Shown here: positions 7,417 through 38,559 of the stretch, one piece after another
Position numbering within the stretch: the stretch's first letter is position 1
Layout of the letters: each line of letters starts with the position of its first letter
Translations under genes and position numbers: made by a program
Assembly: GCA_017428945.1 (NCBI GenBank)
Contig: JAFRPW010000004.1
Span: 1 to 38,559, forward strand
DNA length: 38,559 bases
Direction: 5' to 3'
From: Bacteroidales bacterium
Lineage (GTDB): Bacteria; Bacteroidota; Bacteroidia; Bacteroidales; UBA932
The notes under the pieces: generated by a model
Databases searched by the model: none
Told to the model about the DNA's origin: nothing
Seen by the model: the letters and a program-made list of their open reading frames with translations, nothing else

Positions 7417-9336
7417 TTAACCGCCTGATTTTGAGGGAGGGTATTTTTCGGGAGGCTGTTCCCGGAGCCACACAGATTTTATTGGGCAGACCGGATGCGG
7501 TGTTATTCCGAGGGCATCCTGGATTTCGGCAAGCTTGGTTTCGGGTGTGGTGCTGCGGCGCACTTTGAGGAGATGGCCGTTGTCCTGCTCGGCAACCATC
7601 GTGACCCTCTGCTGGGTGCTCATGATGCGAAGAAGTTCCTCCCAACGGATGTTGATGCCCTTTTTCTTCAGTATGTATTTGGTCGTAGAGACGACCCAGT
7701 ATGCCAGTACGGCCAGGTTGAGGTGCGCCTTCGAAGCCTCGTCCGTCTTGTGATATACCGGACGGATGTCCAGGTCTGATTTCAGGGTCTTGAAGGTCTC
7801 TTCCACGGTCCTGATGACGTTGTAGTAGGTCCAGATGTTCTCCTCGTCCTTTTCGTCCAGCGTGGTCTGGAGCAGGTACTTGCCGTGCATCATGCGCACG
7901 GCCTCGTCCGTCTCGGTGTTCCTGGACCAGGTCATCCCTGTCGCAACGTCTTTGTCGTCGTAGGTGAAGGTAATGTCGTACAGGCGGCGCATCCCGGCGA
8001 ACTTGGCATCCAGCCGGCCCAGGCGGTTCTGGACCTTGTCGCGCTTCTTCGTGCCACGGCCCTCGATGCCGGCTTTTATCTTGTTGAGACCCAGTTCGTA
8101 CCTGCCCACGTACAGGTTGTACATGCTGCGCTCCTTGGCTATGCGGGCGTCGCTATCAACAAGCAGAACGGTATCCGTGACGCCTTCCACCTTGGCCAGC
8201 TGGAGGCGGATCTCCTGCTTCTTGTTGTCGGTTATCGTGCGTACGGGACCTTCCACAGTGTATTTCGTTCCGGATGACCGCATGACTGTGATGTAATCGT
8301 ATCCGTGGTCCTTGAGCCACTGGAGGTTGGCGGCGCTGCAGAACCCTGCATCCATCACCACCAAGTGCTTGCAGGGGGTGAGGTTCTCTTCGAGGCTGCC
8401 GATGACTTCCTCCAGCGTCGTGACATCCTGACGGTTCCCCTCGAAGATTTCCGTCCGCACGAGCAGTCCGTCGGTATTGACCACGGCGGCAAGGACGACG
8501 ATCTTGCAGTCGTCACGCTTCTCCTTGCTGTGGCCGCGCTTGCAGATCCTGGAGTCCTCCATCTTCCCCTCGAAGTAGGTGTTCGTCAGGTCGAACAGGA
8601 GAATGCGGTCCTCGATGTCGAACATCGTACACACCCGCTTGTGAAGGTAGTTCTCCATCTCGCGGTGGACCTTGTACAGGTCGTGGGACCCTTTGTAAAG
8701 GGTGTCCTTGGTTATCTTGTCCGGATTCAGGCCGAACATCTCGCACACGGCAGAGTTCTCGCGGATGTATTTGGCCGTCTTGAACTCGGAGTACGGATAG
8801 ACGGCGCGGGCGATGATTTGCATCAGGGCTACATCTATCTTCTCCTTGCTCCATCCCCGGCTTTCCAGAAAGGATTGTATGCCAAGCCGTTGCAGCGTGG
8901 TATGGCAGACGTGCTCGGCGCCGACGGCACGCGCCATTTCGGGATGCAGGCTCTTCAGTTTGATGCTCACCTTGATTTCCCTGGCCTCCTCCGCCTTGCG
9001 GCGGGCCTCTTTGGCCAGCTTGTCGGCACGTTCCTGGGCCTCCTTCTTCTCTTCCAGCCACTTGCCGTAGAACCCAAGCGCCGCTTCATACAGGCGCGGC
9101 TTGTCGCACAACTTGCCGGTACCTTCGTTAATCAGGGATGTCAGCAGGTCGGCCAGTTCCTTGCGGTCCGCCTCGGTCGGGAAGTCCAGCAGTTCTCCAA
9201 GGCCGAGCACCGTGCGCTGCTTGACCTTGCCGTCAGCCTCGCGATACGACTCGCACAGGCGGTAGTAGGTGTAGGGAACCATGATTGTCTGGTCTCCTTC
9301 CGGGTTCCTCCACTTCTTTGACGGCTTGATGAACAT
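7417..9336 (-). CDS. IS1634-family (IS4 superfamily) DDE transposase
   Basis: 639 residues from the ATG at 9336 (an in-frame ATG at 9345 is equally possible). After a helical, Lys/Glu/Ala-rich segment (about residues 85-125), the DDE catalytic domain is readable: first Asp in LLFDLTNTYFEG, second Asp in LVVMDAGFCSAANL, and the Glu in the EETFKTLKSDLDIRPVYH region. The GHSKEKRDD segment and overall length match the large IS1634-type transposases (COG5421). It catalyses cut-and-paste transposition of the surrounding element. It occupies nearly the entire element, with its stop 23 bases from the left end. No frameshift or premature stop is seen, so it is probably active. Confidence 0.92.
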   Translation of the reverse strand: MFIKPSKKWRNPEGDQTIMVPYTYYRLCESYREADGKVKQRTVLGLGELLDFPTEADRKELADLLTSLINEGTGKLCDKPRLYEAALGFYGKWLEEKKEAQERADKLAKEARRKAEEAREIKVSIKLKSLHPEMARAVGAEHVCHTTLQRLGIQSFLESRGWSKEKIDVALMQIIARAVYPYSEFKTAKYIRENSAVCEMFGLNPDKITKDTLYKGSHDLYKVHREMENYLHKRVCTMFDIEDRILLFDLTNTYFEGKMEDSRICKRGHSKEKRDDCKIVVLAAVVNTDGLLVRTEIFEGNRQDVTTLEEVIGSLEENLTPCKHLVVMDAGFCSAANLQWLKDHGYDYITVMRSSGTKYTVEGPVRTITDNKKQEIRLQLAKVEGVTDTVLLVDSDARIAKERSMYNLYVGRYELGLNKIKAGIEGRGTKKRDKVQNRLGRLDAKFAGMRRLYDITFTYDDKDVATGMTWSRNTETDEAVRMMHGKYLLQTTLDEKDEENIWTYYNVIRTVEETFKTLKSDLDIRPVYHKTDEASKAHLNLAVLAYWVVSTTKYILKKKGINIRWEELLRIMSTQQRVTMVAEQDNGHLLKVRRSTTPETKLAEIQDALGITPHPVCPIKSVWLREQPPEKYPPSKSGG

Positions 9337-9454
9337 ACCCTGCAAAGGTCGTCATTTTCAAGCACTTGCGCAAATCAAAATGAGAGCCACACAAAAGGGC
9401 TTTTTGGCTCAAAAACGAGGCGTTTGGGTGGGACTACCTGCCCCTGAGGGCCTT

Positions 9455-13156: not shown

Positions 13157-14524
13157 TTACAACAAATTGTTGAATTTGGTCATGGATTCTGCCTTGATGG
13201 AGTCCACAATGTCGATATAGGGCCGCATGGCTTTGTAGTCGCTGTGACCGGTCCATTTCATCACCACGTCAGGGGCGATGCCCAGGGAGAGGGCGTTGAC
13301 AATGAAGGTGCGGCGGCCGGTATGGGTGCCCACCTTGGCCCATTTGGGAAATACCTCGTCCGTGCGGGTGCTGCCTTTGTATGTAGTGATGCGGATTTCT
13401 TCATCGATGCCGGAGAGCTTGCAGAGCTCCTTCACGTCCCTGTTCATGGCCTGGTTGGTAAGGTTGGGCAGGGCCTTGTTGTCTTTGAATGGAACGTCCT
13501 TGTACTTCTCTAGGATGGCTTTGGTGATGTCGTTCAGTTCGATGGAGATGCTGTCGGCCGTCTTGACGGTGGTGACTTCAATGTGGTCCCCCTTGATGTC
13601 GCTGCGACGTAGATTGTTGGCGTCGGAGTGCCTGAGGCCGGAGAAGCAGCAGAAGAGAAAGACATCACGTACCGGATCCAAATAAGCATTATCGCCGGAG
13701 AGTTCAACCGCCCGCACTTTGCCCAATTCTTCCTTGGTAAGGTAAATGACTTTCTTCTGCGTTCTCTTAAGCGTGGGCCGGAATTCCTTGTAGGCCTTGT
13801 TGGTATTATATCCTTTTTCCGTAGCCCAGTTGAGGAACCAACGCAGGTATCCCAGTTTCTTCTCAATAGTGGAGTTCCTGAGGCCGGTGATATCCTCATG
13901 GTTATAGTTTTTCCTATCGCCCTTTTTCTTGCGCGGTGTGCGCAGTTTCTTGGTATCACGAAGATACACGACAAACTCCGTAAGCGCCGACTCGGTGAGA
14001 GATGAAAAGGAAATGTCTTTCCTGAATGCTTTAAGATCCACTTTGAGCGCATCCATCTTTTCAAGCGTAGCCGGAGTCCAGGCGTTTTTCTCACCAGCTT
14101 CCGTGCAAAACTGAGCGAAACAGTCCCAGAAGGAAAACACCTTTGGCTTCATTTCGCGTTTCTTCGGCTCAGGCTCCGGCCTCTTGGGCAGGATGCCGGA
14201 CATACGCTCCTTGTACATCTTTGTCACTTCAGAAGGTGTGGGAATCTTCTCGTTTATCTCGAAGTACTTGAACACCATATCCATCTGGTCCTTCGCCTTC
14301 CGGAGTTCATCGTTGATGGTAAGGTCCGTCTCTCCCCTGGGTCCGGTATAACCAGGCTTCACCAACTCTTTTTCTTCATCCCAGCACAGAGGAGAAGACA
14401 GCTGACATCCGGTGGAGAGGTCTATCCGCTGGCCGTTGAAGCTTACTCTGAAGCGAATCTGGTACTTGTTTTTGTCTTTGCCATAGGCAAAGAGGCTGAA
14501 TGCCGCACTGCGTTTGATTTTCAT
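13157..14524 (-). CDS. Tyrosine site-specific recombinase (integrase)
   Basis: 455 residues from the ATG at 14524 (MKIKRSAAFSLFAYGK); the frame extends upstream to 14602, but that start would lie almost on the promoter box. An N-terminal arm-type domain (KYQIRFRVSFNGQRIDLSTG) and a SAM-like core-binding domain (about residues 140-260) precede the catalytic domain. Catalytic residues are readable: Arg in CFSGLRHSD, His and Arg in HTGRRTF, His in WTGHSD, and the Tyr in MRPYIDI. It integrates and excises the element; the adjacent tRNA-Ser 3' fragment at 14659 marks its target. It is transcribed leftward, away from the attachment site. Confidence 0.95.
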   Translation of the reverse strand: MKIKRSAAFSLFAYGKDKNKYQIRFRVSFNGQRIDLSTGCQLSSPLCWDEEKELVKPGYTGPRGETDLTINDELRKAKDQMDMVFKYFEINEKIPTPSEVTKMYKERMSGILPKRPEPEPKKREMKPKVFSFWDCFAQFCTEAGEKNAWTPATLEKMDALKVDLKAFRKDISFSSLTESALTEFVVYLRDTKKLRTPRKKKGDRKNYNHEDITGLRNSTIEKKLGYLRWFLNWATEKGYNTNKAYKEFRPTLKRTQKKVIYLTKEELGKVRAVELSGDNAYLDPVRDVFLFCCFSGLRHSDANNLRRSDIKGDHIEVTTVKTADSISIELNDITKAILEKYKDVPFKDNKALPNLTNQAMNRDVKELCKLSGIDEEIRITTYKGSTRTDEVFPKWAKVGTHTGRRTFIVNALSLGIAPDVVMKWTGHSDYKAMRPYIDIVDSIKAESMTKFNNLL

Positions 14525-14599
14525 ATTGCGTCTTCTCCGCGTAGTTATAAATATCCCAAAAATATCCCGATTTCGGTTGGAGTCGCCTAACTCCGACTG

Positions 14600-14607
14600 C
14601 AAAAATA
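14600..14607 (-). promoter_or_regulatory. Promoter -7 box for the integrase
   Basis: TATTTTTG on the minus strand matches TAnnTTTG; a CTTG lies 20 bases upstream (14628-14631). The transcript would start about 70 bases before the integrase ATG at 14524. The leader holds two AAATATCCC-like direct repeats (about 14546-14566) that could be integrase arm sites. Confidence 0.5.
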
Positions 14608-28597: not shown

Positions 28598-28630
28598 AAA
28601 CTCCTAAAAAACTCTACAAAAGCACTGCTT

Positions 28631-28665
28631 TCCCGCCAAACCTTGTTTTTTGGCGGGAACTTTTA
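28631..28665 (+). terminator. Rho-independent terminator after the dipeptidase gene
   Basis: A perfect 10-bp stem TCCCGCCAAA (28631-28640) pairs with TTTGGCGGGA (28649-28658), followed by ACTTTTATT. Confidence 0.85.
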
Positions 28666-28666
28666 T

Positions 28667-28674
28667 TATATTTG
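28667..28674 (+). promoter_or_regulatory. Promoter -7 box of the phosphate-type operon
   Basis: TATATTTG, an exact TAnnTTTG match, 26 bases before the ATG at 28701; a CTTG lies 21 bases upstream. It is immediately after the terminator, and no other promoter or terminator is evident in the nine genes that follow. Confidence 0.6.
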
Positions 28675-28700: not shown

Positions 28701-29363
28701 ATGAAACTGTTCCAAATATTCTCTACAAGCCGCGCAAAATTGTTTGCAGAATCCGTGGACAAACTCCTCAACACGGTAGATACTGCATTGATACTCTTTA
28801 AGGAAGGGGTACGCAGCTACCTCTACAACGACAGCGAGAGTTTTTCTCAGACACTCTCAGCCATGGCCACCGCTGAGACAGAGGCCGGAGTCCTCAGGAG
28901 GGATATTGAGAACATGCTCTATTCCCGCGGTTCCCTCATCCGCTACAGGGGAGATATCATGCGCCTTCTGGAAAGATTCGACCACATTATCTCCATCGTC
29001 AGCAACGACCTCATCCAGTTCGAGATAGAGGACCCCAATGTTCCCGCTTCCCTCAGGAAAGAGTTCGTCAAGCTTGCAGAGCTTGCCACCCTTGCGGCAG
29101 AAACCACAATCCCCGGCACAAAGGCATACTTCAGCCAGCCGGACCAGGTGAGTGAAACCATCCATCGCGTATACCTCTACGACAAGCAGGCCGTAAAGCT
29201 GGCCCAGTCCATCAAGCGTACCGTCTTTCACGACATGGACCATCTGAAGCTCTCGGAAAAATTCCACCTCCGCTATTTCGCGCTCCATATCGAAGACCTG
29301 TCCCACTCTGCGGTAAAGACCGCGGAGCAGCTTTCCGTCATGACAATCAAGCGCAGTCTGTAG
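28701..29363 (+). CDS. DUF47 / PhoU-like protein (PiT accessory protein)
   Basis: 220 residues from the ATG at 28701; the open frame extends into the terminator upstream, where no credible start exists. It is wholly helical, with the DUF47 pattern: MKLFQIFSTSRAKLFAESVDKL..., DRDIE-like RRDIENMLYSRGSLIRYRGDIMRLLERFDHIIS near residues 70-100, and a matching second half. DUF47 proteins are PhoU-like and normally pair with PiT phosphate permeases, affecting their activity. Here the next gene, 6 bases on, encodes a PiT-like domain fused to a DNA-binding domain, so this protein may relay phosphate status to it. Confidence 0.85.
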   Translation: MKLFQIFSTSRAKLFAESVDKLLNTVDTALILFKEGVRSYLYNDSESFSQTLSAMATAETEAGVLRRDIENMLYSRGSLIRYRGDIMRLLERFDHIISIVSNDLIQFEIEDPNVPASLRKEFVKLAELATLAAETTIPGTKAYFSQPDQVSETIHRVYLYDKQAVKLAQSIKRTVFHDMDHLKLSEKFHLRYFALHIEDLSHSAVKTAEQLSVMTIKRSL

Positions 29364-29369
29364 CCCAAG

Positions 29370-31010
29370 ATGCTGGATGGAATAATCATACTGCTCATCG
29401 CCCTTACCCTTGTGGGCATGCCGATGCTCCGCCTGGAAACTCCGTGGATTATCAGTCCCATGCGCGCCACCGGTGCCGGGGAACTCATTTTCATGAAGAT
29501 CCTGGTTCCGGTACTGGCGGTATGCACCATGCTGGCGCCGTTTTTCGTAAAGTCGGAACCGTGCGATTCCCTGCGTGAAGCCGTTCCCGCTGCCGGAATT
29601 CCTTCAATTATAGCCATCTCCATGGCCGCTCTTGCGGCAATGCTTCTGTCCACCGTAATACATCGCGCCTGCGGTGCGCCGTATGCGGTTATGGGGGCAA
29701 TTTTCGGCTGCCAGCTAAAGGTAAACGGCAGCATAGACATAGCGTATGCGGGGGGGATGGTGGGCAGCTGGTTGCTGGCGCTTGTGTTAAGCGGCTTCCT
29801 GGCGGGCATCTTCTCTTTCATTTTCCACAAGTATTCGTCAAAAAGCGGGCGTCATTTTATAGTTGTAGACCAGCACTTCCTTGCCATAAGCATATTTGCC
29901 ACCCTGTTCCTGGTGGTAACTTCTTCCTGGAACCTTGGCCAGCTGGTGGCGGTGTGTCCGGTTTTTGTGCTGGGAGAGAACCAGACATCGGCCTTTATAG
30001 CAGTGGGCATACTCCTGGTGCTGTTCATACTGTCAATTAACAGCATCAATATCTGGAGTTCCAGGATTGCGGACTCTGACCTGGATGCCGGCACGGGCCA
30101 TATTCTTTCCGCCATGCTGGCAACCGGAGTTACTTTTCTGGTGTTCTCCCTGCCCGTCATAAAGAAAATCGGCCTTACTCCGGCTCCGCTATCCGCCGGG
30201 GCGCTCATGATGTCTGCGCTCATAGGGATAGCCATAGTCCGAAGGGATTCCACGGTGAGCGGAGACAGCATCCTTAAAAGTATAGCAGCGGCCGTTTTCG
30301 CTCCTTTTCTCGGGCTCCTTATGGGTTATTGCTTCAGCATGATTCTGAACGTAGGCGAAGGCAACACCCCCAGGGACAGCGTAATTCCTATCCTTGCCCT
30401 GCTGGGAATAGCCATAGTATGTGTAAGCCTGTATCTATATGTCCGGAATTCCAGGATAGAGGCCTCCAGAAAAGAAATCCTCCGTGTCCGCGAAGAGCAG
30501 ATAAATTCTACCCAGAAGTCCCTGAGCGCCCTTGAAGTAAGGGCTGAAACCACGGAGAAAGACCTTAACAACAAGCTGGAAATCAAGCGTAAGGAGCTTG
30601 TGGACTTTGCCGTGGGACTAAGCGACCAGAAGGCCTTCATAGACGATGTATACCGTCGGCTCACCGATGCCCGCAGCCTTCCGGACGGTCCCCAGAGGGA
30701 CGAGGCCCTGGACGAAATCCTTTCGAAGATACGCGAGCGCATGTACTTCACCCACGAGATGAACGACTTCTATGCCCGCACGGAGGTCCTGCACCGTGAC
30801 TTCAACATGCACCTTAAGGAAGCCTACCCCAACCTTACGGAAAGCGAGCGCAAGCTTGCCAATCTCCTCCGCCAGGGGTTCTCCTCCAAGTACATCGCAT
30901 CCCTTATGAATATTACCCCGAAGAGCGTGGAGATAAGCCGCTACCGCCTCAGGACCAAGCTTGGCCTTTCCCGCTCGGATAATCTTGTACAATTCATAAA
31001 ATCACTTTAA
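29370..31010 (+). CDS. PiT-like membrane domain fused to coiled coil and LuxR-type HTH
   Basis: 546 residues. About ten hydrophobic helices cover residues 1-360; the segment GAPYAVMGAIFGCQLKVNG...GSWLLALVLSGFLAGIFSFIF resembles the conserved GxPxSxxHAxxGAxxG...SWxxSPxxxG region of PiT (PHO4) phosphate permeases. The PiT signature GxNDxxN is not found in either half. A coiled coil (about 362-440) and a helical linker lead to a C-terminal LuxR-type DNA-binding domain (about 486-546: YPNLTESERKLANLLRQGFSSKYIASLMNITPKSVEISRYRLRTKLGL), the form seen in Bacteroidota one-component regulators. I infer a membrane-tethered, transporter-derived sensor-regulator. It follows a DUF47 gene and precedes an OprO/P porin. 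The HTH call is strong; the PiT relation is moderate. Confidence 0.75.
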   Translation: MLDGIIILLIALTLVGMPMLRLETPWIISPMRATGAGELIFMKILVPVLAVCTMLAPFFVKSEPCDSLREAVPAAGIPSIIAISMAALAAMLLSTVIHRACGAPYAVMGAIFGCQLKVNGSIDIAYAGGMVGSWLLALVLSGFLAGIFSFIFHKYSSKSGRHFIVVDQHFLAISIFATLFLVVTSSWNLGQLVAVCPVFVLGENQTSAFIAVGILLVLFILSINSINIWSSRIADSDLDAGTGHILSAMLATGVTFLVFSLPVIKKIGLTPAPLSAGALMMSALIGIAIVRRDSTVSGDSILKSIAAAVFAPFLGLLMGYCFSMILNVGEGNTPRDSVIPILALLGIAIVCVSLYLYVRNSRIEASRKEILRVREEQINSTQKSLSALEVRAETTEKDLNNKLEIKRKELVDFAVGLSDQKAFIDDVYRRLTDARSLPDGPQRDEALDEILSKIRERMYFTHEMNDFYARTEVLHRDFNMHLKEAYPNLTESERKLANLLRQGFSSKYIASLMNITPKSVEISRYRLRTKLGLSRSDNLVQFIKSL

Positions 31011-31020
31011 CACTAAAACC

Positions 31021-32412
31021 ATGAAGAAACTTACTAGCATTCTGACACTGGTCCTCCTTTCCGCAGGCATTGCCTCCGCACAGGAGAACGAACAGTACAA
31101 TCAGTATGGCGTGAAGGTTGTCACCGAAACCCTCACCGCAGAGGCCCAGGACGGCATCCTGGTGCTCCGTTCCAAAGGTGATTCCGGCTACAAGATCTGG
31201 CTGGACAACCGCGTCCAGGTAGACGGCGCCGCCTTCTTCGGTGAGCCAAAGTGGGCCGATGGAATCTCCAATGACTTCTCCATCCGCCGCGCCCGCTTTG
31301 CCGTCAAGGCACAAATCGACAAGGATTGGTACGGCGAGGTAGATATGGACATGGCCAACGGAGTGTTCGAGCTCAAAGACGCTATTATCCGCTACACCGG
31401 ACTTGAAAACTGGCAGTTCCAGGCGGGTAGCTTCAAGGAAATCTTCTCCCTTCAGAGAAACAACTCTTCCCGTTATCTCCAGTTCATCGAGCGTCCTATG
31501 GTCTGCTCGGCCCTGGCGCCTTCCCGTCATCTGGGTTTCAACGCCAATTACTACAACAAGGGCTTGTTCCTGAACCTGGGCATTATGGGTCAGGAAATTG
31601 AAGGTGAAGAAACGCGCAGTTTTGTGGAGGAGTCCAGCAAGGGAAAGGGCCCGGACAACGGCCTCACCTATACTTTCAAGGCCGTTTACCAGCCTGGCTG
31701 GAACAAGACCGACTGGGGTATGCACATTGGTGCGGCCGCTTCTTACCGCAACCCCAAGACCTCGGATGAGTTCTTTGGCAAAATGCGTTACAGCGCCCGC
31801 AACTCTACGAACATCAACCGTAAGAAATACGTGGACACCGGCGACTTTGACTTCGACCACTACGTACGCTACACGGCAGAACTTGCCGGTTATTGGAAAG
31901 GATTCCGCGGTGAGGCCGTTTACATGGGCAACACCACGGCATATATCCCCGACATTAAAAATGCGCCCACCGTTACATCTCCCAGGACTTTCTATGGATG
32001 GTATGTCCAGGGCGGTTACCTCCTCTTCGGCGGCCAGCAGCGTTATGATGGCGCAGGCGCCAAGTTCACCCGCGTAAAGAGGGGCCAGAAGTGGGGCGAT
32101 GTTGAGCTCTGCGGCCGCGTGGAGTACCTTAATCTAAATGCCGATGCCAAGCTGGCTGCCGACGACCAGGTAATCATGGGTGGTAAGTCCATGGCCTATG
32201 CCCTTGGTCTGAACTACTACATCAACGACCATGTGAAGGTCCAGCTCAACTGGCAGTACAACGACAACGACCGCTTTGCTTCCGGTAAGGGCAACAAGTT
32301 CTATGTTGGACTGGACAAGGACGGCAACCCCACCAAGACTCCTTACAAGACTACTGGAAAAGCAGGCGTAGACTACCACATGGTTGCCATGCGCTTCGAG
32401 ATAGACTTCTAA
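31021..32412 (+). CDS. OprO/P-type porin (phosphate-selective porin family)
   Basis: 463 residues. Signal peptide ending at GIASA-Q (about residue 20). The mature part is a beta-barrel with the Porin_O_P pattern: GYKIWLDNRVQVDGAAFF, SIRRARFAVKAQIDKDWYGEVDMDMANGVFELKDAIIRYTG, QAGSFKEIFSLQRNNSSRYLQFIERPM, alternating strands thereafter and a C-terminal Phe (RFEIDF) for barrel insertion. Family members in Pseudomonas take up phosphate or polyphosphate; in Bacteroidota the specificity is often unproven. It begins 10 bases after the PiT-HTH gene, so its expression is coupled to the regulator. Confidence 0.9.
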   Translation: MKKLTSILTLVLLSAGIASAQENEQYNQYGVKVVTETLTAEAQDGILVLRSKGDSGYKIWLDNRVQVDGAAFFGEPKWADGISNDFSIRRARFAVKAQIDKDWYGEVDMDMANGVFELKDAIIRYTGLENWQFQAGSFKEIFSLQRNNSSRYLQFIERPMVCSALAPSRHLGFNANYYNKGLFLNLGIMGQEIEGEETRSFVEESSKGKGPDNGLTYTFKAVYQPGWNKTDWGMHIGAAASYRNPKTSDEFFGKMRYSARNSTNINRKKYVDTGDFDFDHYVRYTAELAGYWKGFRGEAVYMGNTTAYIPDIKNAPTVTSPRTFYGWYVQGGYLLFGGQQRYDGAGAKFTRVKRGQKWGDVELCGRVEYLNLNADAKLAADDQVIMGGKSMAYALGLNYYINDHVKVQLNWQYNDNDRFASGKGNKFYVGLDKDGNPTKTPYKTTGKAGVDYHMVAMRFEIDF

Positions 32413-32435: not shown

Positions 32436-33068
32436 ATGAAAAAGTATTTCTTTTTTGCTCTGGCCGCTGCATTCGCTTTTGTAGCATGCCAGCAGGATCC
32501 CGAGGTAACAAAGGATGACGAGACCAATCAGAATCAGAACCAGAACCAGAATCAGGGTAACGAGCAGACCGGTGATGACCTTATCGCCACCCTGTGCATC
32601 AATGAGGTATGCGGTGTGGTAGGTTCCAAGGGAATTGAGCTTTACAACCCCACAGCCGCAGAAATATCCCTTGAGGGCGTTACCATCTACAAGAACGAGG
32701 CTGCCGACCCCACCTGGACCGGTGATGCCGACGCCAAGATTGCTTCCAAGGGCTACTATGTAATCACTTCCAAGAAGGAGTTTGACAACATCGCCGATGT
32801 TGCAAATGCCAAGGCTGCCGACAGCTTCTCCCCCTCCAAGTCCCTCATCCTGGTCCTCAAGGACAAGAGCGGCAACACCCTTGATACCTTTGACCGCGGC
32901 TGGACAAAGAACGCCAACACGGAAGTTGCCCTTCCTACTGCTGAAGGTTCTTTCGCCCGCACAGCAGACGCCAAGAAGGAATGGAAGGTCCTGGAAATTA
33001 CCATGGGCAAGACTAACAATGGCGCAGCACTTGTGGGTGACGGCACAATCATAGAAGACCCCGAATAA
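32436..33068 (+). CDS. Lamin-tail-domain lipoprotein
   Basis: 210 residues. Lipoprotein signal peptide (AFAFVAC), then an NQ-repeat spacer (NQNQNQNQNQ) and a lamin-tail (LTD) domain: LCINEVCGVVGSKGIELYNPTAAEISLEGVTIYKN...IASKGYYVI...LILVLKDKSGNTLDTFDRG. LTD domains in bacteria are surface or secreted immunoglobulin-like modules, often attached to nucleases or phosphatases; here it stands alone on the lipid anchor. It lies 23 bases after the porin. A role as a surface partner of the porin is possible but unproven. Confidence 0.75.
   Translation: MKKYFFFALAAAFAFVACQQDPEVTKDDETNQNQNQNQNQGNEQTGDDLIATLCINEVCGVVGSKGIELYNPTAAEISLEGVTIYKNEAADPTWTGDADAKIASKGYYVITSKKEFDNIADVANAKAADSFSPSKSLILVLKDKSGNTLDTFDRGWTKNANTEVALPTAEGSFARTADAKKEWKVLEITMGKTNNGAALVGDGTIIEDPE
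32526..32555 (+). repeat. Hexanucleotide repeat in the lipoprotein spacer
   Basis: Five AA(T/C)CAG units encode (NQ)5 just after the lipobox; copy-number change would alter spacer length in frame. Confidence 0.85.
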
Positions 33069-33074
33069 TAAGCC

Positions 33075-33713
33075 ATGGCAGAACTCAAGATTGGCGAACA
33101 GTCCAAGCCGCGCTTTGAATTCCGCAGCTTCGGCCAGTGCTTCTGCGAGGCACACAAGCGTATGGCACGTCTCTCCGTTCCCGTACCCGAAAAGGTATGG
33201 GAACGCCAGAGCGACGAGATTTACATCATCTCCGCCAAGAACGACATCAACAACACCAAGATCCGCGACGGCAAGATGGACATCAAGACCTATGTCCAGA
33301 CCGTAGACGGCTTCGAGCAGTGGAACCCCCTCATGAAGGGAGAATTCCCCATCTCAAAGGAAGTCCTTGAGAATGAGGTATTCCCCGCCTTCATGGTGGA
33401 AATGCCAAAGCTCACCAAGGACACCTACACCTTTGACGAGTTCATCGCCATGGTGAAGGCCAATCCGGACCTTGCCGCCGTCCGCGTTCACAAGCAGCGC
33501 TTCGGTTACATGGTAAACAACACCATCTGCGAGGTTGGCAACGTTCTCATCAACGGCGCCAAGGTAGTTACCATCAACTCTGAATCAACTGAGATTGAGG
33601 ATATTAAGAAAACTGTGGCGGACTGCCACCTCGAGGGAGTGGAGAACATCAACTACCTCCAGGCCATCAAGCGCGTCATCGGCATGTCTGACAAACCCCT
33701 TGCAAACGAATAG
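33075..33713 (+). CDS. Divergent CYTH-like protein
   Basis: 212 residues, cytosolic. It begins like a CYTH strand but with RFEFR in place of the ExExK/R motif, then SDEIYIISAKNDINNTKIRDGKMDIKTYVQTVDGFEQWNPLMKGEFPI, VRVHKQRFGYMVNNTICEVGNVLINGAKVVTINSESTEIEDIKK and a final NINYLQAIKRVIGM. The pattern KIRDG...K, KxRxxY, CEV, ESxE and NxxYxxxlK follows the triphosphate tunnel fold of CYTH/VTC proteins. It is followed after 3 bases by a canonical CYTH gene. Likely binds tripolyphosphate, polyphosphate or a nucleotide; catalysis is uncertain given the altered first motif. Confidence 0.6.
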   Translation: MAELKIGEQSKPRFEFRSFGQCFCEAHKRMARLSVPVPEKVWERQSDEIYIISAKNDINNTKIRDGKMDIKTYVQTVDGFEQWNPLMKGEFPISKEVLENEVFPAFMVEMPKLTKDTYTFDEFIAMVKANPDLAAVRVHKQRFGYMVNNTICEVGNVLINGAKVVTINSESTEIEDIKKTVADCHLEGVENINYLQAIKRVIGMSDKPLANE

Positions 33714-34202: not shown

Positions 34203-35780
34203 ATGACAGACCCGCTGGACATGAATAACTACAGGATCGAGAAACTGCCCAAGATGCAAAAGAGCAGGTTCGAGATCTGGATGGCACGCCTGGGTGCCCC
34301 CCTGGCTATCATTGCCTTTATCTGGATATGTTGGTTCTGTCACATCGGTTTTATTGACAATCTGGACACCGGACTGCTGGCCGCTTCCGCGCAGAAGCGG
34401 CTGGCAGCCTTGGGTCTGGATGGCTTCATCCGGGCTAATTATGCCATGCTGGGCATATTCGTGGCCAGCCTTATCCTCTGGATGACCGAGGCAATTCCCA
34501 ATTACCTCACCTCGCTCATCCTCATACTTGGTGTTGTGCTTTTCAACGTTACCACCCAGAAGGAGGCCCTGGCACAGCTGGGCCACCCCGTGATGTGGCT
34601 CAATATCCTGAGCTTCGTGCTGGCTTCCATGCTGGTAAAGACGCGTTTTGCAAAGCGCCTGGCGCTGGCCTTCGTCATTAAGTTTGGGCGCAGCGCAAAG
34701 GGCGTACTCTGGAGTTTCCTGGTGATTAACCTGGTGCTGAGCGCATTCATATCGGCAACCACGGTGAAGGCCACCATCATGCTCCCTATCTTCATGGTGA
34801 TCTGCGCCATTTACGGGGCGTCAAACGGCAACCGCAATAACTTTGGCCGTAACCTCGTGATTCAGAACCTGTTCCAGGTGAATATCGGCGCAAATGCGTT
34901 CTACACGGGATCGGGCGCACACCTTCTGGCCATTTCCCTCATCGCCGGTTTCGTGGGAAGCTGCGACTTCGGCTATAAGGAATGGCTCATTGCCGTGGGG
35001 CCCATGAGCGTCATTATCCTTGTGGTGGGACTCCTGCTTGGCATGTACGTCTTCTTCCCTATGAAAAAGGAAGAGCAGGTGCCCCAGATCCAGGGCGGCA
35101 TAGACCGCTTGAAGGAAGAACTTGCCACCATGGGAAAGATGACCAAGGAGGAATGGAAGGCCGTCGTGATATTCCTCATCGTCCTTTTCCTGTGGGTCAC
35201 CAAGGGCACTTTCCACAATATTGACGAGACCATCGTCGCCCTCATCGGCGCAGTGCTGGCCCTGATTCCCGGCATCGGCGTAGTGAAGTGGAACGATGTT
35301 GACATCCCCTGGCACCTCATGCTCTTCAGCGCCGGTGCATATGTCCTTGGGAGCGGCCTCAATGCCACGGACCTTCCCAACACCATGGTCAACGCCGCCT
35401 TCGATTCCATGGGAATTACGGCCGATACCCCCTTCTGGGTACTATACGTGATACTTACCTTCCTGATGATGTACTCCGGCCTGGTGTTCCAGTCCAAGAC
35501 CATCAGGACCATGGTCTTTGTACCAATCGCACTGGGCGTTGAGAAGCGCTTCGGCTTCCCGCCCATGAGCCTGGCCCTCCCGGTGTCCATGCTCATAGAA
35601 CACTGCTATGTGCTGCCTTTCAACAGCAAGCCGGCGGCCCTTCTGTACACCACAAACCAGTACAGCATGACGGACGCCTTCAAGTACGGCATCACCATGA
35701 TGACCTTCTCCTGGCTCCTTATCCTGCTGTTTGGCCAGACCCTTCTGAAATGGCTGCACATCACACCGGGACTGTTTTAA
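34203..35780 (+). CDS. SLC13/DASS-type anion transporter
   Basis: 525 residues with about eleven to twelve membrane helices. DASS landmarks are readable though diverged: LILWMTEAIPNYLTSLILILGVVLF near residue 85, SAFISATTVKATIMLPIFMVICA in place of the first SNT loop, and EHCYVLPFNSKPAALLYTTNQYSMTDAFKYG for the second. Family members carry dicarboxylates, sulfate or, in yeast Pho87/Pho90 types, phosphate, usually with sodium. The altered SNT motifs suggest an unusual substrate; the operon context makes phosphate or another small anion a reasonable guess. Starts 9 bases after the CYTH gene. Confidence 0.85.
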   Translation: MTDPLDMNNYRIEKLPKMQKSRFEIWMARLGAPLAIIAFIWICWFCHIGFIDNLDTGLLAASAQKRLAALGLDGFIRANYAMLGIFVASLILWMTEAIPNYLTSLILILGVVLFNVTTQKEALAQLGHPVMWLNILSFVLASMLVKTRFAKRLALAFVIKFGRSAKGVLWSFLVINLVLSAFISATTVKATIMLPIFMVICAIYGASNGNRNNFGRNLVIQNLFQVNIGANAFYTGSGAHLLAISLIAGFVGSCDFGYKEWLIAVGPMSVIILVVGLLLGMYVFFPMKKEEQVPQIQGGIDRLKEELATMGKMTKEEWKAVVIFLIVLFLWVTKGTFHNIDETIVALIGAVLALIPGIGVVKWNDVDIPWHLMLFSAGAYVLGSGLNATDLPNTMVNAAFDSMGITADTPFWVLYVILTFLMMYSGLVFQSKTIRTMVFVPIALGVEKRFGFPPMSLALPVSMLIEHCYVLPFNSKPAALLYTTNQYSMTDAFKYGITMMTFSWLLILLFGQTLLKWLHITPGLF

Positions 35781-35792
35781 CCTGAATTGATT

Positions 35793-36419
35793 ATGACTAT
35801 AGACTGGGTACTTATTTTCCGGCTCGTGGCAGCCGGACTCATGGGCGGCTTCATAGGCCTGGAGAGGGAACTGAGATCGAAGGAAGCCGGCGTGCGGACT
35901 CATTTCATAGTGGCGCTGGGAAGTGCCCTTTTCATGATTATTTCCCAGTTTGCTTTTGAAGGCAGGCAGCACGATGCCGCCCGCGTGGCCGCCCAGGTGG
36001 TCTCCGGAATCGGTTTCATCGGCGCCGGCGTCATTATTTTCCAGAAAAATGCGGTCCGCGGAGTTACAACCGCTGCGGGCCTTTGGGTAGCCGCGGCAAT
36101 AGGCCTTGCATGCGGAGGCGGAATGTACTCCGTTGCAATTGCGGCAACCCTCCTCACGGTGCTTGTCCTTGAGATGATGCACTTTGTGAACCTCCATCTG
36201 ACAGAAAAGCATGTAGACCTCACGCTTACTCCGGACAAGCCCTACGACATCCCGGAGCTTCCGGACAGGCTTAAGAAGGAAAAGATAAAGGTAGACACGT
36301 ATTCCATCGAGGGCGGGAAGGTGCGCCTTTCCATCCGCATGAAGCAGAAAGACTATCTTATCACCATAAGGCGTCTTCTGGACATTCTGGACGGGTTTAC
36401 CATAGAAGAAATGAACTAA
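35793..36419 (+). CDS. MgtC/SapB family protein
   Basis: 208 residues from the ATG at 35793, 12 bases after the transporter. The N-terminal MgtC domain has four or five helices with family motifs GGFIGLEREL, GVRTHFIVALGSALF, GIGFIGAGVIIFQKN and VRGVTTAAGLWVAAAIGLACGGG; a small cytosolic ACT-like domain follows (residues about 140-208). In Salmonella, MgtC affects magnesium, ATP and phosphate homeostasis by acting on PhoR. A link to phosphate balance therefore fits the cluster, but direct evidence is lacking. Confidence 0.93.
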   Translation: MTIDWVLIFRLVAAGLMGGFIGLERELRSKEAGVRTHFIVALGSALFMIISQFAFEGRQHDAARVAAQVVSGIGFIGAGVIIFQKNAVRGVTTAAGLWVAAAIGLACGGGMYSVAIAATLLTVLVLEMMHFVNLHLTEKHVDLTLTPDKPYDIPELPDRLKKEKIKVDTYSIEGGKVRLSIRMKQKDYLITIRRLLDILDGFTIEEMN

Positions 36420-36441: not shown

Positions 36442-38559
36442 ATGACCTATCTGTTTTATCTTGTGCCGGCAGCGGCAGTGATTGCCCTGCTGTTCGCCTG
36501 GATTTTCTTCCGTCAGATGAAGAAGGAGAGCGAAGGCACACCTACCATGAAAGAGATTGCACAGTACGTGCGTGAGGGCGCCATGGCGTACCTCCGGCAG
36601 CAATACAAGGTTGTCATTATTGTTTTCGCAGTCCTGGCCGTGCTATTTGCGGTCCTGGCCTACGTGTTCCACGTGCAGAACCCCTGGGTGCCGTTTGCAT
36701 TCCTTACAGGCGGCTTCTTCAGCGGCCTGGCCGGCTTCGTGGGCATGAAGACAGCCACCTTTGCCAGCGCCCGTACCGCCAACGCCACCATGCGTTCCCT
36801 CAATTCCGGCCTTAAGATTGCCTTCCGCAGCGGCGCCGTCATGGGCCTCACCGTGGTTGGCCTGGGCCTTCTTGACATCGCCATCTGGTGGAGCGTGCTC
36901 AAGATTTTCTACGACCCCTCCGACGCCCAGAACCTGGTTATCATCACCACCACCATGCTCACCTTCGGCATGGGTGCCTCCACCCAGGCCCTTTTTGCCC
37001 GCGTTGGCGGCGGCATCTACACCAAGGCTGCCGACGTGGGGGCCGATATCGTTGGTAAGGTAGAGCAGGACATCCCCGAGGACGATCCCCGCAACCCCGC
37101 CACCATTGCCGATAACGTTGGCGACAACGTTGGCGACGTGGCCGGCATGGGCGCAGACCTCTATGAGAGCTACTGCGGCTCCATCCTTGCCACCATGGCC
37201 CTTGGCGCAAGCGCCTTCTTCCAGGACGGCACGGCCGTTCAGATGAGGGCCATCCTGGCGCCCATGATGATTGCTGCAATCGGCGTAGTCCTTTCTATCT
37301 TAGGAATTTATGTTGTGCGCACCAAAGAGGGCGCAACGCTCAAGGACCTGCTTGGCTCCCTGAGCCGCGGCACCAACCTGGCGGCCATACTCATAGCCGT
37401 GCTCTCCTTCGGAGTGTTCTGGCTCCTGGGCTTCCCCAACTGGTGGCAGCTGGCCCTGAGTGTGCTCAGCGGCCTCCTTGCCGGCGTTGTTATCGGCAAA
37501 GTTACGGAGTACTATACTTCCCATTCCTACAAGCCCACCCAGAAGCTGGCGGAAAGCTCCCAGACGGGCCCTGCAACCGTCATTATCAACGGCGTTGGCC
37601 TGGGCATGATTTCCACCGCGGTTCCGGTAATTACCATTGCCATAGCCATCCTTCTTGCCTATGGCTTTGCAACCGGCTTCCACTTCAGCGCGGATACCCT
37701 GAGCCTTGGCCTATACGGCATCTCAATTGCCGCGGTGGGTATGCTCTCCACCCTTGGAATCACCCTTGCCACAGACGCTTACGGTCCCATTGCGGACAAC
37801 GCCGGCGGCAACGCCCAGATGAGCGAGCTTGACCCTTCGGTGCGTGAGAAGACAGACATCCTGGATTCCCTTGGAAACACCACCGCAGCCACCGGAAAGG
37901 GCTTTGCCATAGGCTCCGCCGCCCTTACCGCACTGGCTCTTCTGGCCTCCTACATAGAGGAAATAAAGATAGGTTTCGGTCACCTTGCCGCAAAGGGCGG
38001 GGAACTTGCCGACCAGTTTGCACAGCTTGCAAAGGGTACCATCGTGGACATCGTCAATTATTACGACATTACCCTCATGAACCCCATGGTGCTGGTGGGC
38101 ATTTTCATCGGCGCCATGATGGCGTTCCTCTTCTGCGGCCTCACCATGAACGCCGTGGGCCGTGCAGCGGAGAAGATGGTCATTGAGGTTCGCCGCCAGT
38201 TCCGCGAGATTGCCGGCATCCTGGAGGGAAAGCAGCGTCCGGACTACACCAGCTGCGTGCGCATCTCCACCAAGGCGGCCCAGCACGAGATGATTTTCCC
38301 CTCGCTCCTTGCCATCATCGTCCCCATGCTTGTGGGCGTTATCCTTGGCCCTGCGGGCGTGATTGGCCTTCTTGCCGGAGGCCTTGGCGCAGGCTTTACC
38401 CTGGCCATCTTCCTGGCCAATTCCGGCGGAGCCTGGGACAATGCCAAGAAGTACGTTGAGGAAGGCCACTTCGGCGGCAAGAATTCTTCCAGCCACCATG
38501 CAACGGTTGTGGGCGACACCGTCGGCGACCCCTTCAAGGACACCTCCGGCCCGTCCCTC
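36442..38559 (+). CDS. hppA: Membrane-bound ion-pumping pyrophosphatase, cut by window end
   Basis: 706 residues are visible; the usual length is about 730-760, so only the last few dozen are missing. Hydrolyses pyrophosphate and pumps H+ or Na+ outward. Catalytic loops: DVGADIVGKVE (about residue 196), EDDPRNPATIADNVGDNVGDVAGMGADLYESY, DAYGPIADNAGGNAQMS near residue 450, GNTTAATGKGFAIGSAAL near residue 477 and the last GDTVGDPFKDTSGPS. The Ala in GNTTAA is typical of the K+-dependent class (K+-independent enzymes have Lys there), which in Bacteroidota often pump Na+. Last visible gene of the operon, 22 bases after mgtC. Confidence 0.96.
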   Translation, partial: MTYLFYLVPAAAVIALLFAWIFFRQMKKESEGTPTMKEIAQYVREGAMAYLRQQYKVVIIVFAVLAVLFAVLAYVFHVQNPWVPFAFLTGGFFSGLAGFVGMKTATFASARTANATMRSLNSGLKIAFRSGAVMGLTVVGLGLLDIAIWWSVLKIFYDPSDAQNLVIITTTMLTFGMGASTQALFARVGGGIYTKAADVGADIVGKVEQDIPEDDPRNPATIADNVGDNVGDVAGMGADLYESYCGSILATMALGASAFFQDGTAVQMRAILAPMMIAAIGVVLSILGIYVVRTKEGATLKDLLGSLSRGTNLAAILIAVLSFGVFWLLGFPNWWQLALSVLSGLLAGVVIGKVTEYYTSHSYKPTQKLAESSQTGPATVIINGVGLGMISTAVPVITIAIAILLAYGFATGFHFSADTLSLGLYGISIAAVGMLSTLGITLATDAYGPIADNAGGNAQMSELDPSVREKTDILDSLGNTTAATGKGFAIGSAALTALALLASYIEEIKIGFGHLAAKGGELADQFAQLAKGTIVDIVNYYDITLMNPMVLVGIFIGAMMAFLFCGLTMNAVGRAAEKMVIEVRRQFREIAGILEGKQRPDYTSCVRISTKAAQHEMIFPSLLAIIVPMLVGVILGPAGVIGLLAGGLGAGFTLAIFLANSGGAWDNAKKYVEEGHFGGKNSSSHHATVVGDTVGDPFKDTSGPSL

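Follow-up and report, generated by a model that had tools for sequence, protein, structure and literature searches.

Has a phosphate transporter been turned into a membrane-tethered sensor-regulator? The question is raised by one gene in the 38,559-nucleotide stretch of Bacteroidales DNA analysed here (the window), for which a sequence-only reading had proposed a single chain made up of a PiT-like membrane part and a LuxR-type DNA-binding domain, encoded beside a DUF47 protein.

The regulator gene and its operon

An ORF scan confirmed that positions 29370-31010 of the forward strand form a single ATG-started frame of 546 residues with no internal stop, in keeping with the proposal of one chain. 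A Kyte-Doolittle scan placed 10 hydrophobic segments in residues 2-356, a count based on hydropathy alone that matches the ten or so helices proposed, and no GxNDxxN signature was found in the membrane part, as had been claimed. The gene and its neighbours are arranged as follows:

28701-29363, + strand: DUF47/PhoU_div protein, 220 aa (PF01865 E 3.5e-7, 30.2 bits against a cut-off of 24.4; alignment A2)
29370-31010, + strand: regulator with PiT-derived membrane domain, linker and LuxR HTH, 546 aa
29370-30434, + strand: degenerate PiT domain, residues 1-355, about 10 helices
29931-29933, + strand: codon of the invariant Asn188, aligned with the first Asn of the second PiT signature
30831-30989, + strand: GerE/LuxR-type DNA-binding domain, residues 488-540 (PF00196 E 1.6e-7)
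31021-32412, + strand: Porin_O_P outer-membrane porin, 463 aa (PF07396 E 1.8e-34)
32436-33068, + strand: probable lipoprotein (by eye) with a lamin-tail domain, 210 aa (PF00932 E 1e-9)
33075-33713, + strand: p212, a hyperconserved protein without known family, 212 aa
33717-34193, + strand: CYTH-domain protein, 158 aa (PF01928 E 7.5e-15)
34203-35780, + strand: DASS/SLC13 sodium-coupled anion symporter, 525 aa (PF00939 E 1.6e-53; TIGR00785 over cut-off)
35787-36419, + strand: MgtC-family membrane protein (PF02308 E 2.8e-39)
36442-38559, + strand: membrane proton (or sodium) pyrophosphatase, running off the window (PF03030, 869 bits)

The DUF47 gene was thus found where it had been reported, 6 bp ahead of the regulator gene, which is itself followed by a gap of 10 bp before the porin gene; the genes from porin to pyrophosphatase are separated by gaps of 3-23 bp. 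The LuxR-type domain also stood as described, its score (31.3 bits) exceeding the cut-off of 23.5, and the same domain was detected at E 0.001 or better in 60/60 members of the family set from which profile A4 was built. Between membrane part and HTH, where a coiled coil had been proposed, residues ~360-440 were judged by eye to be charged and heptad-like, and the NF053779 model for BT3442-type proteins matched residues 340-537 (E 1.1e-4). With helices and DNA-binding domain in one chain, and without a receiver or kinase domain, the protein fits a membrane one-component regulator; response-regulator models matched its HTH part only.

A frameshift or assembly error joining two genes was not seen, and a join in the linker could be ruled out because a complete membrane plus LuxR ORF was present in 77/80 loci (the best 80 of 103 relatives, counting only frames with no contig-edge flag, no X and no DUF47 in the same ORF) and because an equivalent ORF of 546 aa is found in the nearest relative (77% identity), the relatives coming from separate assemblies. 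An apparent triple fusion of DUF47, membrane helices and LuxR in L166 (= L252), 711 aa in length, was by contrast rejected as an artefact in which a run of N (L166 6979-6997; L252 7480-7498) joins two genes, a trap for automatic annotation.

The 80 loci derive from Bacteroidales, Bacteroidia, Rikenellaceae and Tidjanibacter MAGs, many of them from ruminants. DUF47 was present in 77/80 and porin in 78/80, all five misses falling at contig ends; corresponding figures, each limited by contig ends and by the length of the stretch examined, were p212 72/80, CYTH 64/80, DASS permease 63/80, MgtC 49/80 and pyrophosphatase 14/80. Among L001-L020, DUF47 was found in 19/20 (L008 starts at a contig end) and porin in 20/20. 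The proposed pairing of fusion and DUF47 is a recurrent one, and is encountered again in other families (vide infra). A DUF47 profile search detected this cluster's DUF47 in 69/398 genomes of the window's family, representing 7/25 genera. The p212 protein shared 78-97% identity with 13 other sequences aligned, and matched nothing in Pfam over cut-off, nothing in NCBIfam and no PDB entry significantly.

The window's own genome, in an assembly 96.8% complete, gave no PHO4 match at E 0.001 and none over cut-off with a looser limit, and no PstB over cut-off (best 233.1 against 343.2 bits); one NptA-type cotransporter was present. Elsewhere in the window, ORFs at 7417-9345 and 13157-14602 resembled by eye a transposase and a tyrosine recombinase.

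Descent of the membrane part

When the profile of 60 family members (A4) was compared with all PDB chains, the best match was the Thermotoga PiT structure 6L85 (E 1.5e-7), aligned in two stretches that covered both repeats. No other PDB match for the membrane part fell below E 0.3, a result that bears out the PiT-like segments originally noted and speaks against a different, unrelated membrane family. The proposed search with the PHO4 model (PF01384) gave a divided answer: it matched 24/60 members at E 0.001 or better (best 2.8e-14), as well as two regulators of the window's own family, L292 and L295 (E 2.9e-54 and 3.8e-55), but the window protein alone gave no match by hmmscan at E up to 10, and in a looser search over relatives attained 18.8 bits (E 6.6e-4), below the cut-off of 33.7. 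An intact fusion, L344, matched 6L85 at E 2.8e-22. Comparison by hhalign of the fusion profile with 19 separate PiTs of the order returned P 3.7e-5 and a probability of 71%, and brought Asn188 opposite the second signature's Asn; an earlier comparison with only six PiTs had returned P 0.0014 and 17%.

By sequence, the membrane part of the window protein is accordingly PiT-derived, a conclusion that is firm when drawn with the family and thin when drawn from the window protein alone. Like the PiT/PHO4 transporters exemplified by 6L85, it belongs by sequence to the same family with both repeats aligned; unlike them, it has lost the signatures and gained a LuxR extension, so that the combination of GxNDxxN with Ser/Thr/Gln loops characteristic of a PiT transporter is not found in it.

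Intact, degenerate and membrane-less relatives

A p212 profile was used to search 393 genomes of the order, with matches in 51 (37/206 genera), and 395 genomes of the phylum, with matches in 13, own genome included. For 40 of the 49 p212-matching genomes outside the window's family, one place each was annotated. A single-ORF PiT-LuxR fusion lay directly after DUF47 in 17/40; one further fusion was split by a stop (L366), one place had a PiT without LuxR (L361), four encoded LuxR but no PiT (L357, L362, L367 and the contig-truncated L351), and in the remaining 17 no regulator was seen, 10 of these showing >2 kb upstream of porin/p212 and seven <2 kb (L337, L350, L352, L353, L354, L358 and L364), too short a stretch to judge from. 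Within the called ORF, the first repeat contained GxNDxxN in 14 of the 17 intact fusions; L339, in which GSNDAAN lay upstream of the called ATG, brings the number to 15, and all 17 carried GANNIxN in the second repeat.

Several further arrangements were recorded among these and other loci. The LuxR protein at the equivalent place was 513 aa in L357, with a membrane part that has no PiT score, 212 aa in L362, with a hydrophobic N-terminus, and 155 aa in L367, without membrane part. A second, diverged p212 copy lay just upstream in 7/40 other-family loci (L352, L357, L358, L362, L363, L365 and L367). In L329-L332 (family f101), p212, CYTH and DASS permease were kept, with porin in 3/4, and DUF47 or regulator was not found within the stretch examined. 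The regulators of L271 and L366 were split by internal stops in one genome each, possibly through assembly errors or recent breaks. Six loci of the same genus (L061, L062, L063, L064, L074 and L075) had a separate long PiT of 746-769 aa; judged by eye from the ORFs, its neighbours include a gene for a response regulator, a sensor kinase or both.

A regulator tree was prepared with FastTree from 372 columns of DUF47 plus linker-HTH (98 regulators dereplicated from 179) and rooted at its midpoint. The regulators whose canonical-PiT score was <20 formed one clade (support 0.98) beside the intact L349, L291 and L295, with the sole exception of L357, which grouped with L346. The losses were then located by aligning 74 degenerate members with 19 intact ones, L111, L166, L271, L357 and L366 being left out. 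Loop Thr98 was replaced in 74/74 degenerate members (by Ser in 3), Gln100 in 73/74 and Gln289 in 73/74, and GxNDxxN was present in 0/74. Of signature 1 the acidic residue alone was kept (D 35, E 33, gap 5), and of signature 2 the first Asn was kept in 74/74; in the window protein the corresponding residues are Glu and Asn.

In the window's clade, membrane-part dN/dS ranged from 0.045 to 0.259 with a median of 0.11, the linker-HTH median being 0.035, across 29 listed pairs that amount to 19 distinct ones, some genomes being present under two names and the L292/L294 pair belonging to the intact grade. Between the window protein and its nearest relative the values were 0.13 and 0.17, at a membrane-part dS of 1.6 that is near saturation. 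The membrane domain of this clade is thus, as judged by these ratios, under purifying selection. Across the 60 members of A4, the other 59 of which are 24-77% identical to the window protein, Asn188 was invariant and Pro273, Gly286 and Pro312 nearly so.

Elsewhere the membrane part is reduced or lost. The chain is shortened to 414-439 aa in L018, L020, L281 and L283, and L297, at a contig edge, has a single frame in which the final part of DUF47 is followed by two helices, the linker and the HTH. L111 is a protein of 321 aa in which DUF47 (PF01865) is joined to GerE without a membrane part, and L296 likewise joins DUF47 to LuxR without a membrane part, its run of N lying inside DUF47 and not at the junction. 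That these two losses were independent of each other is only suggested, since a tree of the HTH alone with outgroups was poorly resolved and the outgroups scattered. Far from standing alone, the window protein belongs to a family whose members across the order range from intact through degenerate to membrane-less.

Two explanations of the membrane part may be weighed against these observations. In the first, the protein is a direct transceptor, its PiT-derived domain binding external phosphate and signalling to LuxR while DUF47 modulates. The purifying selection, the signature-1 acidic residue (68/74) and signature-2 Asn of the degenerate members, and the GxNDxxN kept by intact relatives would all accord with this; the near-universal replacement of Thr98, Gln100 and Gln289, the shortened chains and the absence of the membrane part from L111 and L296 argue against it, and we regard it as unlikely. 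In the second, to which we attach a similarly low probability, the membrane part is an inert anchor left over from a transporter and on its way out. Its fast divergence and shortening, and the fact that L111 and L296 lack it altogether, point in this direction, but the dN/dS values and the invariant or nearly invariant residues are those of a domain still constrained.

A tree of the PiT domain, again rooted at its midpoint, grouped the fusions together (0.82) with the LuxR-less L361 nested inside (1.00), and because it is nested in this way L361 probably lost its LuxR part after fusion. The sister group consisted of separate PiTs, L055-L060, whose second repeat reads GANNVAN in five and GSNNMAN in one; the D to N change in the second repeat is therefore probably older than the fusion. 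At the first signature, where PiT has GxND, these six carry G[GA]SG[TI], as CysP sulfate permeases do. Together with a score for L344 of 84.9 bits with the CysP sulfate-permease model as against 24.3 with PitA, and with the DASS assignment of the operon permease, this raises the prospect that what is sensed or carried is not phosphate but sulfate or some other anion. The CysP score is, however, far below the cut-off of 400, the best PDB match 6L85 was deposited as a phosphate transporter, and DUF47, Porin_O_P, CYTH and pyrophosphatase in the operon would point to phosphate, so that we consider sulfate or another such anion improbable, somewhat more so than either explanation of the membrane part given above.

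Upstream region and candidate operator

The following features precede the DUF47 gene:

28601-28621, + strand: candidate operator CTCCTAA-N4-CTCTACA, an 11-bp direct repeat with degenerate first copy
28608-28621, + strand: AAAACTCTACAAAA, within the candidate operator
28630-28659, + strand: terminator-like hairpin after the upstream peptidase C69 gene (pattern match alone)
28667-28674, + strand: TATATTTG, candidate Bacteroidota-type -7 element (TAnnTTTG)

The promoter assignment follows TAnnTTTG, which we take to be the Bacteroidota-type -7 consensus and which occurred, with duplicates counted, in 100/170 upstream regions, compared with 16.5 on average after shuffling and 30 on the reverse strand; the last copy started 26-40 bp before the start codon in 76 of those 100. 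The box is conserved as well. CTCTACAA was present in 87/120 distinct regions upstream of DUF47 (shuffled mean 0.75), and ACTCTACAA at no more than one mismatch in 69/76 operons with a regulator scoring no higher than 30 for PiT, a group into which L111, L166, L271, L357 and L366 may also fall, and in 10/17 intact operons, as against ~6% in shuffles; the other 7/17 showed the box only with 2-3 mismatches. A second copy followed 11 bp on in 35/92 cases and 22 bp on in 13/92. The box was not found upstream of L111, L357, L361, L362 or L367, all of which except L361 keep a LuxR domain. It was present in 0/11 operons without visible regulator, an absence that is suggestive only, because just 8 of the 11 show >3.7 kb upstream of porin and several have other genes closely upstream.

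Two 7-bp direct repeats with an 11-bp period are also the format of the enterobacterial pho box. The CTCTACA repeats resemble it, and could on that account be a pho box for a PhoB-type response regulator, the LuxR protein acting elsewhere. The window's own repeat pair scored 11 of 14, a value reached by 3/120 shuffled upstream regions. At 20 other loci with PiT, NptA or DUF47 genes the repeat score remained in the shuffled range with one at its upper edge, a comparison made on a 7-kb scale, where even the window's 11 would be unremarkable. The exact 14-mer AAAACTCTACAAAA occurred once in the own genome, at the window operon; with up to 2 mismatches there were 23 matches as against 31 for the reversed control, and two one-mismatch sites adjoined genes that by eye are unrelated. 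Sharing of the box with other phosphate genes in the manner of a Pho regulon was accordingly not above chance at these 20 loci and in the own genome. These results, and the small control set of operons without regulator, make a pho box the least probable of the alternatives considered, marginally behind sulfate. The idea that the box governs further genes elsewhere in the own genome was rejected for want of enrichment, and an inverted operator was a weak candidate, direct repeats being commoner. With a single exact match, no genome enrichment and other loci in the shuffled range, the CTCTACA box looks like a candidate operator that is local, not global.

Discussion

The reading that we favour, and consider reasonably probable, is that of a membrane-anchored one-component regulator, derived from a PiT-LuxR fusion and gated by DUF47, that would control its own anion or phosphate operon. 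The PhoU-like DUF47 protein is the probable receiver of the signal, because in L111 and L296 it is joined to LuxR without any membrane part. DUF47 proteins are thought to dock on PiT transporters; here DUF47 would dock on the PiT-derived membrane domain or the linker, and may thereby decide if the LuxR domains occupy the CTCTACA repeats that precede the operon promoter. Through these repeats the regulator would control its own operon, in either a positive or a negative sense. The signal would be phosphate or a related anion, and the operon products (porin, DASS anion symporter, CYTH, MgtC and pyrophosphatase) would most likely serve phosphate or pyrophosphate supply; signal and DNA binding are both assigned by association. 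Binding or transport of the anion may persist in the PiT domain of intact relatives, while in the window's clade, where the anion-loop residues have gone, it may be an anchor, a scaffold or an altered sensor.

The idea of a phosphate transporter turned sensor-regulator thus holds in so far as the protein is PiT-derived, LuxR-fused and part of a conserved DUF47 operon. Its phosphate-sensing part fares less well: the anion-loop Thr and Gln and most of both signatures are gone, and L111 and L296 point to DUF47 as the input.

Membrane LuxR regulators and transporter-coupled signalling are both already known. DadR, HcdR and CadR of Eggerthella lenta (Coriobacteriia) are LuxR regulators with 10-12 helices (PMC9734109), and share with the window family an N-terminal multi-helix membrane domain and a C-terminal LuxR HTH (PF00196); as is proposed here, they control neighbouring genes, potential autoregulation having been suggested for DadR (PMC9734109). 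Those characterised respond to catechols; in the passages of that paper that concern them no transporter family is named and no DUF47 partner is mentioned, and the terms MFS and major facilitator are absent from its main text (PMC9734109), whereas the membrane domain here is PiT-derived with intact relatives and has a DUF47 partner. The passages of PMC8871633 on CbrA and CrbS describe SLC5-STAC-histidine kinases, for which chimeras suggest that transport is dispensable for signalling. They resemble the window family in the fusion of a transporter domain to a signalling output, but differ in having an SLC5 transporter and a two-component kinase output in place of PiT and a DNA-binding domain in the same chain (PMC8871633). 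CadC with LysP likewise represents a membrane one-component regulator that receives its signal through a transporter, CadC being described in the relevant part of PMC5936718 as having one helix and a periplasmic domain, and LysP as a separate protein.

Among Bacteroidota LuxR proteins, those of BT3442 type (NF053779) have the same linker plus HTH output module with a different N-terminal part, C-terminal-only matches often lying in frames of ~950-1000 aa. No PiT-LuxR fusion was found in the open-licence PMC literature among the matches listed, and the fusion is therefore a variant not met in the literature covered; the original remark that no described phosphate regulator of such a layout was known stands to that extent.

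More broadly, the family may exemplify a Bacteroidales phosphate or anion circuit that operates without a two-component system, in which a PhoU-like DUF47 gates a DNA-binding domain directly. It would have begun with a PiT-LuxR fusion that united transport with transcription in a single chain; one clade would then have lost the anion site, its transporter turning into a sensor scaffold, and a few lineages the whole membrane part, with DUF47 left attached to LuxR, a scheme that we hold tentatively as quite possible, if short of probable. To our knowledge, how PhoU-like proteins pass on the phosphate signal is unsettled, and the DUF47-LuxR fusions together with the PiT-LuxR series make such signalling testable in a short chain of DUF47, regulator and box that includes neither kinase nor Pst transporter. 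They also offer a clue to the function of an operon conserved in gut Bacteroidales, one of whose products, p212, has no known family. The family would display, in its living relatives, a path from transporter to sensor and, if the proposed reading is true, would preserve in them the series of steps from a transporter to a switch.
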